A DNA stretch of 29,603 nucleotides from a virus, in IMG/VR virus record IMGVR_UViG_3300035670_000984, positions 1-29,603 of that record. One strand, written 5' to 3'. This document shows positions 1,876 through 7,316 of this stretch, piece by piece; position 1 is the first letter of the stretch; each line of letters starts with the position of its first letter. Made by a program: the position numbers and the translations under genes. Below the pieces are notes generated by a model. It did no database searches. It saw nothing but the letters and a program-made list of their open reading frames with translations, and was not told the origin of the DNA.

Positions 1876-3414
1876 CTAAAATGGCAGGTCATTTGCCTGA
1901 TTTTTATCAAATCTGTAGGTCTCAACAACTGATTCAGCCTCTAAAATCTCGTTTTCAGTAACGAAATGTTTACGTTCTAATATGAACGGATAACCAACTG
2001 TTGTATTATCAGTATCACCAAAAAAGTTAACATATCGAATGCTCTTTTCTGATTTTTCAACTTTCATATCCTTTGTCAAAACCTTACCAATAAAATGCAA
2101 ATTAACATTGTGATTATTTTTAAAATAAGCTTCCTTTATATCCTTTGGTGAAAAATATATTTGCTTGGCCGTACAATTTAAAAAAACATCTTTAAATATC
2201 TCAAGAAGGTCTTTGTGAAGCCAATTTCGAGATTCATTTTTAACCTCCTCAAGTTTATCTGTCCAAATATCATCATAGGTGAAAACCATCCTTGATTTTG
2301 TAGTGTCAACTTCAGGTAACGATAAAAGATAATTTAAAAAATAAGGAACTTCCTTTACCATCTTGTTTTCGTAGTCAGTTACCAGGTTTTGTATTTTGTT
2401 AATTTTACGCACCCAAAAGCGTATTTCTTCGCTATCAATACGCATAAATTCGTCTTCCTTGTTTGTGGCCATTACTACCTTTCCAAAGAATGGAATTGAA
2501 TACTGGCTTACGTGTTTTTGATTAACGGTCAATGATTTCTGAGTGCTAATTGTTTTAAGCTTCTCTACTGCGGAGTTTTTTTCGATAACTGTCTCATCAA
2601 TGGCAATAACGTTTTTTGTTGCGTATAGGTGGTTAAACGAGTTGTTAAGGTCATCTGGCTTTATAAGAACGTAATTGTCGCCAAATAGCAGTTCAAGCAA
2701 GTTAAGAAAAGTTGTTTTACCTGTGTGTCGTTCTTGAGACACTAACACCAATATCGGAAGTATCTGTTTTGGCATTGTGTACATCACTTGCATATAGATG
2801 TAACCTTTATCAATCTGCTCCTTAAAAATATGATCCATAAGCGAATGGATAAGCGGAAACTCACCAGGCTCTGAAGAAGGCCGGTGTGGAAATGGAGCGT
2901 AAAGATTATAGTTGTTGTTATGAAATTCCTGATACTCTAAATTGTCTGGTATAATGGTGAAGTCATTAAACTTTGGAATATCCTTAATAATTTCCTTGCC
3001 ATGATCATCTATAATCGTTTCTTTCTTCCAGGTCTTTAATTTTTTTAATTCAGTTCCATATCTGGTTTCTTTTTCGATTACCTTATAATAATCACCAGCA
3101 ACACGAATGTATGGTATGTTCTTTTTTAACACCTTATACTCAATGTAGTATTGAGCATCCCAATGATTTGATTTAAAACAAACTATTGTAAGCAATTGAA
3201 ACAATGTCAAGTTTTTCTCACCATATGTTACGATTTTTCCATCAAAAACTATCCTTTCATTTGATTTATTATCTAATGCCTCACTTGAGTTAATAATGGT
3301 GTAATTTTTGGCATTTGCAAATATTTCAATGAAATCGCCATGCTCATTAAACCAATCAACTGGATTGTAATGCTTTTGAATTGCAGATACCTGCTTTTTG
3401 TTAATGTAACTCAT
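1876..3414 (-). CDS. SF3-type replicative helicase (DUF5906-like)
   Basis: This 512-residue protein has an SF3/AAA+ ATPase core in its middle third. The Walker A region is SQERHTGKTTFLN at about residues 227-239, Walker B is NVIAIDE at about 268-274, and a motif C region follows as GKVVMATNKED with an arginine-finger-like IRFW after it. Such proteins (DUF5906, often annotated as primase or helicase C-terminal domain) unwind DNA at phage and plasmid origins. The start overlaps the upstream primase-like gene by ATGA, so the two are probably made together as a split primase-helicase. The extreme C-terminus reads NQANDLPF, resembling an SSB tail, which is unusual for a helicase. The candidate origin lies immediately downstream. 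The region is AT-rich. Confidence 0.8.
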   Translation of the reverse strand: MSYINKKQVSAIQKHYNPVDWFNEHGDFIEIFANAKNYTIINSSEALDNKSNERIVFDGKIVTYGEKNLTLFQLLTIVCFKSNHWDAQYYIEYKVLKKNIPYIRVAGDYYKVIEKETRYGTELKKLKTWKKETIIDDHGKEIIKDIPKFNDFTIIPDNLEYQEFHNNNYNLYAPFPHRPSSEPGEFPLIHSLMDHIFKEQIDKGYIYMQVMYTMPKQILPILVLVSQERHTGKTTFLNLLELLFGDNYVLIKPDDLNNSFNHLYATKNVIAIDETVIEKNSAVEKLKTISTQKSLTVNQKHVSQYSIPFFGKVVMATNKEDEFMRIDSEEIRFWVRKINKIQNLVTDYENKMVKEVPYFLNYLLSLPEVDTTKSRMVFTYDDIWTDKLEEVKNESRNWLHKDLLEIFKDVFLNCTAKQIYFSPKDIKEAYFKNNHNVNLHFIGKVLTKDMKVEKSEKSIRYVNFFGDTDNTTVGYPFILERKHFVTENEILEAESVVETYRFDKNQANDLPF

Positions 3415-4274
3415 AACTCAAGTTTTTCAGATTGGCCCTTTTTTATCATTGTCCTAATGGTTTTTTTGTAGGTATCAGCTTTTTTACATAAATAACTGTG
3501 ATTGTCAATTAATCGGTCAATTACATCTATAGCTATTGATTCAGAAATGTATCCAGCTGCTACGTATCCACCCATTGCATAAGATGCAGCACGAACTATA
3601 TAATGGCCTTCATTTACAATTTTATTAAACCTACTTGATATTATTTCAATAACCTTGTTTTCGTCATCATATGAACTGTAAATTCTGATATTCTCTGATT
3701 TTGCAGGTTTAGGTTCAATGTACTTGTCCGTGAAGTAATCAAAATCTGATTTCATGCACATCTCATAATCGTATGAATAAAAAAGAGGAAGTACCGGATT
3801 CTGGCAGGCCATATCAAAACCGTTGTATATCTTAAACTTTTGTTGGAGTGCCTTAAACCTTAACTTATATTCATCTATTGTTTTGCATTGAGCAACGGCC
3901 ACAAGACCACGAACGCCTTTACCTGAAGATGACAACCAAGATGCAATTACGAATGGATATTTTATTAATTCAAACTTTAATGAGATGGCATCATCATGGC
4001 TTAACTTATCGAAGTCAAAAGGCATAATTTGAGTAAAGTAATTAATATTTTCATACTTGCGCAATGAACAATTCACGGCTGGTGTAAAAAAAGGTAATTT
4101 CGCCTTTAATTTATGCTTAAGTTGCTCATCATTTTTATTTGCAGCTTGATGTATTTTTGTTATATGATTCTTTAATTCATTAGGTGGATTCCATATCATT
4201 GTTAACAATTCGCCTAATGAAATAAATTCCGCAGGTTCTGTAATGTAAACGCCACCTTTATAGAATGGTATCAT
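3411..4274 (-). CDS. Primase-like protein (VirE-N/BT4734 family)
   Basis: This 287-residue protein resembles the VirE-N/BT4734-like N-terminal domain common in Bacteroidota mobile elements. Recognisable parts are an acidic block in FDFDKLS (about residues 86-92), then ASWLSSSGKGVRGLVAV (about 110-126), and DMACQNPVLPLFYSYD (about 154-169). In this fold a conserved Asp pair and a serine/lysine-rich strand resemble the archaeo-eukaryotic primase active site. It is followed at once by the SF3-type helicase through an ATGA overlap, and together they look like the two halves of a primase-helicase. Its ATG overlaps the end of the nuclease-like gene by 17 nt. The primase activity is inferred from family and context. 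Confidence 0.7.
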   Translation of the reverse strand: MIPFYKGGVYITEPAEFISLGELLTMIWNPPNELKNHITKIHQAANKNDEQLKHKLKAKLPFFTPAVNCSLRKYENINYFTQIMPFDFDKLSHDDAISLKFELIKYPFVIASWLSSSGKGVRGLVAVAQCKTIDEYKLRFKALQQKFKIYNGFDMACQNPVLPLFYSYDYEMCMKSDFDYFTDKYIEPKPAKSENIRIYSSYDDENKVIEIISSRFNKIVNEGHYIVRAASYAMGGYVAAGYISESIAIDVIDRLIDNHSYLCKKADTYKKTIRTMIKKGQSEKLEL

Positions 4275-4836
4275 TTTTTGATATTTTTTTAATTATGTTA
4301 CTATAATTTATAGGATGTATTCCGTGATTATTGGCAGTCATATATCTTTTTGGCTCTGATTCAAATAATTCATAATTGCTAAATATAAATGAATAGCTTT
4401 TGTCGCTCCAACTCCTAACTTCACCTATATTAAATTCGCCTAAAAATCCATTCATTGAATGATGTGGTGAATCAGGAAAATGCCTATCAGTATGCCAATG
4501 TATTCCATCTTTATCTATTCTTGTTTCTTCTACCATAACAAAATATTTAAATGATAGTGGTGGTGCTATTAATATCGGTATATGTCTTGTATGGCCATAT
4601 ACTTGAAATTTCAATCCTGAATATCTCATTGCTTGTTTAATATACTTGCCAATTTCAGCACCTTTTTTGCGGTCAAATCGTTTGCACTCAATTCCAAAAA
4701 CATATTTTGGATTTTGTTTATGTACCAAAACCAAGTCTATTCTTGCACTATTGCAAGTAGATTTCACTTCACTTAACACATAAAATTGCATTTGAAAAAC
4801 TAACTTTAATTTTTCAACAAATTCTTTTTCAGTCAT
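4258..4836 (-). CDS. PD-(D/E)XK-like nuclease, unknown role
   Basis: I place the start at the ATG at 4836 (192 residues, MTEKEFVEKL...). The same frame continues up to a GTG at 4899, but that lies inside a strong RNA hairpin. The motif order IDLVLV (Asp), about 14 residues, GIECKR (Glu-x-Lys) matches the PD-(D/E)XK nuclease core, and a helix with an Ala-Met-Arg face (KYIKQAMRYS) follows. Later parts (IPILIAPPL, WHTDRHFPDSPHHS) are not recognised. The gene follows a structured RNA with a terminator-like hairpin, so expression may depend on read-through or on a start below the hairpin. The gene is strikingly AT-rich and precedes the primase-like gene with a 17-nt overlap. It could be a recombination nuclease, a Holliday-junction-type enzyme or a host-DNA nuclease. 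Confidence 0.55.
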   Translation of the reverse strand: MTEKEFVEKLKLVFQMQFYVLSEVKSTCNSARIDLVLVHKQNPKYVFGIECKRFDRKKGAEIGKYIKQAMRYSGLKFQVYGHTRHIPILIAPPLSFKYFVMVEETRIDKDGIHWHTDRHFPDSPHHSMNGFLGEFNIGEVRSWSDKSYSFIFSNYELFESEPKRYMTANNHGIHPINYSNIIKKISKNDTIL

Positions 4837-4856
4837 ATTTGCAGATTTTACAAAAC

Positions 4857-4945
4857 AAAAAACCCCAAAGTAATCGCAGCCTCTCACCTCTGCAACCACA
4901 ATGGGGTTTATTTCTTAATTCGGTATAACGTGAGAGGCCGAATGC
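4857..4945 (-). ncRNA. Structured small RNA or leader with complementary hairpin loops and a terminator
   Basis: Read on the minus strand, hairpin 1 pairs ATTCGG (4938-4943) with CCGAAT (4918-4923) and has the loop CCTCTCACGTTATA. Hairpin 2 pairs AAACCCCA (4902-4909) with TGGGGTTT (4860-4867), has a 2x2 internal loop of U residues, then a 10-bp inner stem (4890-4899 with 4870-4879) and the loop AGGTGAGAGG (4880-4889). The loops are complementary over 8 nt: CCTCTCAC and GTGAGAGG, or 9 bp counting the adjoining base of each stem. This allows a kissing loop or a competing long-range helix. Hairpin 2 is followed by T residues (4857-4862) and looks like an intrinsic terminator. A TATATTTG box at 4950-4957 puts a start near 4945. 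The segment is visibly richer in G+C than its flanks. It could be a free sRNA of about 90 nt or an attenuator for the genes at 4836-1876. Confidence 0.7.
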
Positions 4946-4949
4946 ATTG

Positions 4950-4957
4950 CAAATATA
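4950..4957 (-). promoter_or_regulatory. Promoter -7 box TATATTTG before the structured RNA
   Basis: The minus-strand 8-mer TATATTTG matches the Bacteroidota -7 consensus and sits about 7 nt before the first base of hairpin 1 of the RNA at 4857-4945. It lies just after the stop of the PAPS-reductase-like gene at 4964. No clear -33 TTTG is visible. Position, rather than a full two-element match, supports it. Confidence 0.55.
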
Positions 4958-4963
4958 CTAAAA

Positions 4964-6187
4964 TTATTTAATGTTTAACTCTATGTTAGATGCTATTTTA
5001 CGCTTATTTTGAATTTCTTTAAATTGATAATAGGCATCTGATTTCGGTTGTGTTTGTCCTAATCCTTTGCACCAATAATCATTGCGTAAAATAACCTTAC
5101 AAAGTCTTCGCCATGAAGGCACCCAACATTTGTTTTCGAGGTCTTCAGGTGCTTCATCTGGAATTGATAGATACCCACGGTCTTGCCAACTTTTAATAAA
5201 CTTCACAAAACGTTCTCTGTAATGCAAACTTGTTTTTTCTGGCATTGTCTGAAGTAATAAATTACAAAAAGATTTCCAAGTATGCCCGTCTGGTTTTACA
5301 ATTTTATTATATCCAGTAATATTTCCATTTTCTTGAATGTAAAGTGTCCCAGAATTGACTCCATTAACTCTTGATACTACTTTATACCATGTTTCTGGTT
5401 CTAATATATGATATAACCATAGACCACGCCTTTGATCATCACCATATGGCTGGCATAATCTTTGCTGCGATATTTTTACACCTGCCCTACTCATTTTATC
5501 ATAAACTCTATTGTATATTAAATCATTATTTTTCCCGTGATAAATCCAAATATCTTCTGTTTTCCAATCATAAATTGGATATACATTATAAAGATTTGAT
5601 GCTATCAATGTAGTCCATTTTTTATTATTATAGCATAAACCTTCCTTGTTTGAAACAATTGCCCTATACCTGTGTAAAGATTCATCGGCCCTTATGCCTA
5701 TTAATGCAGCAGTTAATTCTCCTTTTGAATACCATTTGCCAAATAAGACCATAAACTCTTCAAATTCCATTTTAGGTACATAAAAATCATATTGATCTAA
5801 ATTGGCAGCCAAATATGGTTTTTCTCTTACCCATAAATCTTTTTTAGTTTCATCCCAACATATCCACCTTGGTTCATAATTTGATACTGCATTTCTTAAT
5901 AGCAATTCAGCACAAACCCAATGCAATTCAATATTATCTTTGTATGTATTAACTATATTATTAATGTGTTTAATAGTATCATTGTATTGTGCCTCTAAAT
6001 CAATTATTAAAAATCCTACCTTACGTTTTCTTTTTTGAGCCTCTTGTAAAACCAAATGAGTCATTACTGTTGAATCTTTACCTCCACTAAATGAAACATA
6101 AATTTTATTGAAATTATCAAATATATATGATATTCTTTTTTTTGATGCTTCAAGTACATCGATATCTAAATAATGTTTAGTTGCCAT
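4964..6187 (-). CDS. IbrA-like PAPS-reductase-family protein (DUF3440-like)
   Basis: The 407-residue product has the PP-loop ATP-binding motif SGGKDST at residues 34-40, within IYVSFSGGKDSTVMTHL, the hallmark of the PAPS reductase/ATP pyrophosphatase superfamily. Further features typical of the DUF3440/IbrA group are GIRADES, a KTEDIWIY segment, QRLCQPYGDDQRRGLW and the C-terminal block PSWRRLCKVILRNDYWC. It starts one base after the stop of the ParB-like gene, reproducing the IbrB-IbrA gene pair. In E. coli, IbrA and IbrB act together as activators of prophage genes; their chemistry is not settled. The fold adenylates or transfers sulfur on substrates, as DndC does in DNA phosphorothioation, so action on nucleic acid is plausible but inferred. 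The gene is notably AT-rich. Confidence 0.8.
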   Translation of the reverse strand: MATKHYLDIDVLEASKKRISYIFDNFNKIYVSFSGGKDSTVMTHLVLQEAQKRKRKVGFLIIDLEAQYNDTIKHINNIVNTYKDNIELHWVCAELLLRNAVSNYEPRWICWDETKKDLWVREKPYLAANLDQYDFYVPKMEFEEFMVLFGKWYSKGELTAALIGIRADESLHRYRAIVSNKEGLCYNNKKWTTLIASNLYNVYPIYDWKTEDIWIYHGKNNDLIYNRVYDKMSRAGVKISQQRLCQPYGDDQRRGLWLYHILEPETWYKVVSRVNGVNSGTLYIQENGNITGYNKIVKPDGHTWKSFCNLLLQTMPEKTSLHYRERFVKFIKSWQDRGYLSIPDEAPEDLENKCWVPSWRRLCKVILRNDYWCKGLGQTQPKSDAYYQFKEIQNKRKIASNIELNIK

Positions 6188-6188
6188 A

Positions 6189-7316
6189 TTAATAAATATT
6201 TACTTGTCTACCAATTGATAATGCCTCTTCAATAGTCAATTCATCAAATCCATTGCGTTTATTCCAAATATTTAAATATTCAAGTGCTGTGTTATTAGCA
6301 ATGTTTTGTTGTTCATTAGTCAACAGATTGAATCCAGAACAAAATTTAGATGGCACACCGGTTGCATAACACATTGACGCCTGACCTAACCAAGAAATTC
6401 GATTCATAGCTTTATTTGTCAAGTAATGTTCGCATGAATGCTTCCATTCTGTAATTACTTTTTCAAGAGTTTCTCTAAATAAATTATCATTTGATAAAAA
6501 TTCAGCATATGCAAGTTCGCATTGTTCACCTGTCATACCATCTTTTTTAGATGCATAAAAACCGGCTTTATGACATTCCCATTTATCATATGTATGGAAT
6601 ATTCTATTTGGGTCAGATGTATTAACTGTCCTATAATCAGCACTTAAAATTTCTGTATCATCAATATCTTCATATGAATTAATGTAATCAGAAGATTCCC
6701 AGGATTTACTAAATGCTTCATCCTTAAATATTTCTGATAAACCAGTAATTTGACATAATCTTAAAATTTCTTCTTGATCCATTCCAAGTTCTTTGGCAAT
6801 TCGTTCATTTTTCCAATTTCTTGCTTTTAATTCAAGTACAATTTCACTCATTGCATCAACTTGATGTTTTCCTCTGGCCCTATTATGCCGTATTGTAGAT
6901 GCTATTCTATCATTTTTGTCGGATTGTTCTTTGCGGATAATAACCGTTGGTAAGTATCCATTTATCCTTTGTTTTACTATTTTGCTTTCCTTACCAACTC
7001 TGTTACGGTGAAAACCATCAATAACCTCATATTTGCTTTTAGTTTCTGAAAACCAAGTAACGATTGGTTGAGTATAACCATCATTCATAATTGATATTTC
7101 AAGTAATTCCATCTCTGGAGGAGCAACTTTATTTGGATTATAATCATTGGCAACTACTTCATCGTTTTTTTGCCATATTACCAAATCCACTGGCTCATTT
7201 TTAAATGGTGAATGTTCATGTATTAATTTTCTTAATTCATTAATAGTTTCAACTTTTAAATTAAAGTCATCAATTGATTTTAAATGTTGTTCAATACTGT
7301 TTTTTAAATCTATCAT
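6189..7316 (-). CDS. IbrB-like ParB-domain protein
   Basis: This 375-residue protein contains a ParB/sulfiredoxin-type domain at about residues 50-150. ANDYNPNKVAPPEMELL matches the ParB box I region, and YEVIDGFHRNRV the box II region with its Gly-x-x-Arg core. An HTH-like segment follows at about 165-195 (NERIAKELGMDQEEILRLCQ). The C-terminal half has no recognised motif. The gene is immediately upstream of the PAPS-reductase-like gene with one base between them, the IbrB-IbrA arrangement. ParB-like domains bind nucleotides (CTPase in ParB) and related DGQHR domains occur in DndB. It begins its own transcription unit after a terminator at 7387-7422 and behind an 18-bp palindrome at 7364-7381. 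AT-rich composition sets the pair apart from flanking genes and suggests acquisition as a cassette. Confidence 0.8.
   Translation of the reverse strand: MIDLKNSIEQHLKSIDDFNLKVETINELRKLIHEHSPFKNEPVDLVIWQKNDEVVANDYNPNKVAPPEMELLEISIMNDGYTQPIVTWFSETKSKYEVIDGFHRNRVGKESKIVKQRINGYLPTVIIRKEQSDKNDRIASTIRHNRARGKHQVDAMSEIVLELKARNWKNERIAKELGMDQEEILRLCQITGLSEIFKDEAFSKSWESSDYINSYEDIDDTEILSADYRTVNTSDPNRIFHTYDKWECHKAGFYASKKDGMTGEQCELAYAEFLSNDNLFRETLEKVITEWKHSCEHYLTNKAMNRISWLGQASMCYATGVPSKFCSGFNLLTNEQQNIANNTALEYLNIWNKRNGFDELTIEEALSIGRQVNIY

Follow-up and report, generated by a model that had tools for sequence, protein, structure and literature searches.

A leader RNA with complementary hairpin loops, probably an attenuator, precedes replication operons in Bacteroidota phages

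The window, that is, the whole stretch of 29,603 nucleotides analysed here (a 29.6-kb IMG/VR virus record), carries a leader RNA on its minus strand at 4957-4836, the same strand as the neighbouring large genes. The locus lies between the gene for an IbrA-like PAPS reductase (4964-6187) and an operon, running from 4836 down to 1876, that encodes a nuclease-like protein, a BT4734-type primase and a DUF5906 protein. The first gene after the leader (4258-4836, minus strand) encodes a nuclease-like protein of 192 amino acids that itself matches nothing in Pfam or PHROGs, while its counterpart in locus L177 matches PDDEXK_4. It is followed, on the same strand, by genes for a protein with a BT4734/VirE_N-type primase domain (3411-4274, PF08800) and a helicase-like DUF5906 protein (1876-3414, PF19263).

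In transcript order, the leader consists of a TATATTTG box, 6 nt, hairpin H1, an 8-nt linker, hairpin H2, a U tract and the ATG of the next gene. The box (4950-4957, minus strand) agrees with TAnnTTTG, the -7 consensus for the primary sigma factor in Bacteroidota (PMC7366714), and is found at the same position in relatives. The window leader lacks a clear -33 TTTG; a TTG stands at the -33 position in 36 of the 56 leaders with matching loops described below. All further elements lie on the minus strand. H1 (4918-4943), written ATTCGG-CCTCTCACGTTATA-CCGAAT, has a 6-bp stem and a 14-nt loop. H2 (4860-4909) is the stem of an intrinsic terminator with a folding energy of -25.6 kcal/mol, built of 8 bp, a UU/UU internal loop, 10 bp and the 10-nt loop AGGUGAGAGG, and is followed by a U tract at about 4851-4862. 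Sequence and fold thus agree with the preliminary description of this segment, which had reported two hairpins, the second split by UU/UU, and a U tract. The ATG at 4836, a point absent from that description, nearly abuts the U tract. The leader, as had also been noted, is richer in G+C than its surroundings (44.9% against 22-24% in the flanks); its minimum free energy is -34 kcal/mol (z = -2.7).

The distinctive feature of the leader is the complementarity of its two apical loops. The H1 loop element, X (GCCTCTCAC, 4930-4938), whose first base lies within the H1 stem, has its only exact complement in the terminator loop element, X' (GTGAGAGGC, 4879-4887). The pairing GCCUCUCAC/GUGAGAGGC comprises 9 bp, the number previously stated, when the one H1 stem base is included. 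A search for pairs of hairpins with complementary loops gives this one match in the window, where 0.25 would be expected by chance. When promoter and U tract are added to the score, the window reaches 94, compared with 69 at most in shuffled sequence (3 x 0.69 Mb). The original observation is correct, and it extends further than was reported.

Covariation in homologs, which the preliminary description had named as its check, is present in H1, in H2 and in the loop pairing. Because the descriptor used in the search demands complementarity, circularity was a concern, and leaders were selected in three ways that are blind to the loops: by a backbone profile, by the H1 pattern, and by promoter, terminator and ATG. 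The backbone profile, whose seeds but not whose further members came from the descriptor, gave 29 matches, and 27 homologs were aligned. In this alignment all six pairs of the H1 stem change on both sides, as do five of the eight pairs of the kissing helix, which is paired in 97.6% of cells; the covariation score of the whole structure is 0.466, against 0.181 for shuffled and at most 0.098 for slid alignments. A search of all viral contigs with the H1 stem pattern, in which the central 5 nt of the loop were left free, found 61 stretches that represent 29 distinct leaders with four loop types (GGTCTCAC, GGTTCGAC, GATTCCAC and GATCTCAC). An exact 8-nt complement of the loop lies downstream in all 29, and in none of 570 swap controls. 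Selection by promoter box, terminator and ATG alone yielded 60 distinct leaders with about 36 loop sequences, in which the loops are complementary over at least 6, 7 and 8 nt in 56, 50 and 35 leaders, respectively (5.9, 2.0 and 0.5% after swapping). The shuffled-sequence scores and the swap controls rule out chance pairing of the loops.

The same architecture recurs in many phages of Bacteroidota. Loci were reached through IbrA genes and, by a primase alignment, through primase genes, and the counts given here describe those loci rather than a frequency over all Bacteroidota phages. Many of them score 77-90, compared with 94 for the window and 69-75, depending on the scan, for the best shuffled sequence. 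The closest relative of the window leader, in L087, has a similar backbone and the loop GATCTCAC; single-protein scans with the window nuclease and primase found no close relatives. Among cultured phages, the leader stands before replication genes in Flavobacterium phages mumin6-4, tooticki6-1, lillamy9-1, snusmum9-1, morran9-1, 11b and elemoA and in Olleya phage Harreka_1, where it is unannotated or covered by a short hypothetical ORF. Direct BLAST of the metagenomic leaders against isolate phages found none of these, because the leader sequence diverges. The regions examined of pippi/lotta, FPSV, phi12:1, phi17:1, phi18:2, P12024L and phi46:1 did not contain the leader, and Bacteroides phage B40-8 gave chance-like matches only. 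As for a general leader of Bacteroidota genes rather than a phage element, 375 kb of host chromosome slices, a small sample, contained two chance-like candidates. The first genes behind the leaders are DUF6291 with DnaB, VirE-type primases and PD-(D/E)XK nucleases, and sometimes genes for ParB/IbrB, HNH proteins or methylases. Where the loops match (56 leaders), the terminator is followed after 4-30 nt by the start codon, and 51 of the 56 H2 stems contain an internal loop. Interior loops have been noted as a feature of regulatory kissing hairpins (PMC4878617).

Each leader has its own loop specificity. Nine contigs of 10-36 kb contain the exact loop 8-mer nowhere but in the two loops of the RNA itself, so that no other exact loop target was found within these phages; neither 8-mer is present in a tenth contig, the carrier of another type. 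Contigs with two leaders (L023, L030, L031, L080 and L145, and also mumin and tooticki) use differing loops. Since the loops are unique in these nine contigs and differ between the leaders of one phage, each leader pairs with itself, whether in cis or between copies of one leader. The leader of snusmum9-1 differs from that of tooticki6-1 and lillamy9-1 at 10 positions across a 121-nt stretch, and four of these belong to two base pairs of the kissing helix in which the changes compensate each other (GTGGAACG/CGTTCCAC and GTGAGACG/CGTCTCAC), while morran9-1 has a third loop type (GTGAGAAG/CTTCTCAC). In the mumin, tooticki and morran leaders the backbone changes more slowly than the loops. Different replication modules follow the mumin and tooticki alleles (L261 and L262); as these related phages of the same hosts have a near-identical leader backbone, the leader may mark a seam at which modules are exchanged. 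Another leader with this layout, whose loop is GTCGTCG, stands before an endonuclease gene in the mumin and tooticki phages (L261:1000 and L262:1594); it is identical in the two although the loops of their main leaders differ.

The element is the 5' leader of the operon and not only a free small RNA. Of the two readings offered at the outset, a free small RNA or an attenuator, the latter has gained, as the order promoter, H1, terminator and ATG is kept in dozens of phages; the small RNA would be the terminated by-product. A promoter, a terminator and a start codon in succession form the layout of an attenuator and, with promoters judged by the TAnnTTTG consensus, support such regulation as a candidate. 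Expression of the operon from the leader promoter needs read-through, because a strong terminator precedes the start codon and no second TAnnTTTG box lies between leader promoter and start codon in the 30 members checked. The leader is probably an attenuator tuned by loop-loop pairing. RNA polymerase would start just ahead of H1 at the TAnnTTTG promoter and run into H2 and the U tract before it reached the start codon of the replication operon; the operon would be expressed from this promoter by read-through only, and a terminated RNA of about 90 nt would accumulate. Pairing of the H1 loop with the terminator loop would set the probability of read-through. That the pairing alters termination, in which direction it does so, and that there is feedback in trans are steps that we infer.

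Among possible mechanisms the following seems the most likely, with kinetic and feedback steps that are tentative. If X pairs with X' as X' exits the polymerase, closure of the terminator would be delayed and some polymerases would pass. Once terminated leaders are abundant, their X' loops could occupy the X loops of new transcripts in trans, a step suggested by the complementarity, and termination would win. The result would be negative feedback proportional to the number of leaders, and hence of genomes. One leader would then be a self-antisense attenuator that carries the sensor loop and, on its terminator, the matching antisense loop; terminated leaders would count transcripts or genomes and shut the replication operon in trans, while the loops diversify into orthogonal specificities. 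This fuller scheme is conceivable but doubtful. Against loop-tuned attenuation in general, the window leader has no classical antiterminator strand, the longest match between its 5' part and the stem arms being 4 nt, and the X:X' pairing uses no terminator stem bases; loop-loop pairing is the sole alternative contact in this leader. Across 21 backbone families the linker is 8-14 nt when 5 or more unpaired nt follow X in the H1 loop and 13-39 nt otherwise (Mann-Whitney p = 0.002; a post hoc comparison in which the bounds of H1 were partly drawn by hand). Cis kissing with both hairpins formed would need such a geometry, which suggests that the loops can pair in cis while the terminator stays intact. 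A simple model in which kissing disrupts the terminator is mildly disfavoured, whereas a kinetic delay of terminator closure may be compatible with the geometry.

The same geometry would also fit a leader in which the loop pairing is a fixed tertiary contact in cis that gives a compact, stable RNA or a reliable terminator, without any switching. Pairing of each leader only with itself agrees with such a contact, and a 5' hairpin at the start with a terminator at the end would protect the RNA. A fixed contact is nevertheless unlikely, since it leaves the terminator between promoter and gene unexplained and the mumin, tooticki and morran loops evolve faster than their backbone. If, instead, the terminated RNA of about 90 nt were a free regulator that dimerises or binds a host RNA, the neighbouring gene would be transcribed mainly from upstream. 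Upstream genes do often run directly into the leader, which has its own promoter and terminator, but the start codon always follows 4-30 nt behind that terminator. The nine phage contigs hold no other exact target, and a conserved host target is improbable because close relatives on the same hosts differ in their loops. A free regulator of this kind is quite improbable.

The usual place of the leader before primase and helicase genes could also point to a replication element, in which the hairpins serve as origin DNA or the transcript primes replication. This is very improbable: the promoter and the U tract are conserved, some leaders precede ParB/IbrB or HNH genes instead, and repeat-rich, origin-like stretches occur elsewhere in related phages. 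An RNA immunity of prophages, as with P4 CI RNA, in which a resident copy would silence incoming phages through matching loops, would suit a leader that heads the replication operon and whose loop types differ between phages. These phages look virulent, however: a tyrosine integrase was not found in 22 contigs, phages of the mumin type are described as only lytic (PMC7077304), and few relatives occur in bacterial genomes. Lysogenic immunity is thus hardly credible.

The leader resembles several known systems and is assigned to none of them. Rfam 15 gives no match above the gathering threshold, in line with the earlier statement that no named RNA family has this layout, and searches of the open PMC literature found no description of such a leader. 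The attenuator read here works most like the antisense attenuator of the Staphylococcus aureus plasmid pT181, which has a 5' leader, a sensing hairpin and an intrinsic terminator before the replication gene, as well as loop-loop kissing and interior loops in the hairpins (PMC4878617). In pT181, however, the antisense RNA is separate, whereas the phage leader holds both partner loops in one RNA; the nine contigs contain no other exact copy of the loop. The pT181 antiterminator strand is complementary to the terminator stem, and the window leader is without such a strand. Because it fails this defining trait, the leader is not filed as a pT181 member.

P4 CI RNA, P1 C4 RNA and IsrK of Gifsy-1 are short leader-derived RNAs made together with a longer read-through mRNA from one promoter, and they control immunity or antirepressor in temperate phages. 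As in the present leader, complementary elements lie inside one transcript; unlike them, the leader belongs to phages of virulent type, its loop pairs with the terminator itself, and it has no family match. Isoforms of IsrK have been described (PMC4825925). The phage leader shares with the IncI-type repZ leader loop-loop pairing before a replication gene and type-specific loops, but its partner loop sits on the terminator. The repZ pseudoknot acts on translation with a separate antisense Inc RNA. The phi29 pRNA, another small phage RNA, likewise has two complementary loops that covary. It belongs to the packaging motor and pairs between molecules, whereas the present RNA is a leader before replication genes with no Rfam match above threshold.

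The leader is thus an unnamed RNA element with one rule, namely that the H1 loop is complementary to the terminator loop, and lies before mostly replication operons in many Bacteroidota phages. It is probably a switch, so far unrecognised, immediately ahead of the genes, with dosage control or interference between co-infecting phages as a possible role. It becomes possible to test how replication genes are gated in virulent phages of Bacteroidota and whether compatibility in co-infection is decided by the loop type. If the self-antisense scheme is true, the specificities would be comparable to plasmid incompatibility groups, only in virulent phages, and one phage could shut down replication in a related, co-infecting phage whose loop is the same. 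The leaders would also provide a natural collection of more than 30 kissing-loop attenuators that are probably orthogonal, a property that proved difficult to obtain in pT181 attenuators (PMC4878617).

Several other features were seen in these phages. In phages of Flavobacterium and Cellulophaga, long inverted and repeated elements (GTGTAACC; GACCAGT), which are candidate replication origins, follow the VirE helicase gene (L003:8332-8578, L004:9681-9855 and L005:8846-9110). Adjoining the leader, 4964-7316 of the window encodes the IbrA-like PAPS reductase (DUF3440) paired with a ParB-like IbrB. IbrA relatives are encoded in 361 viral stretches, so the pair is very common, and in L030 and L023 it sits itself downstream of a kissing-loop leader. 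The reading frame of the terminase large subunit in L177 (11755-13905) has a match to an intein splicing domain (PF14890), and window 9776-10492 matches the Mom DNA-modification family over its full length (PF25680, E 1.5e-35).
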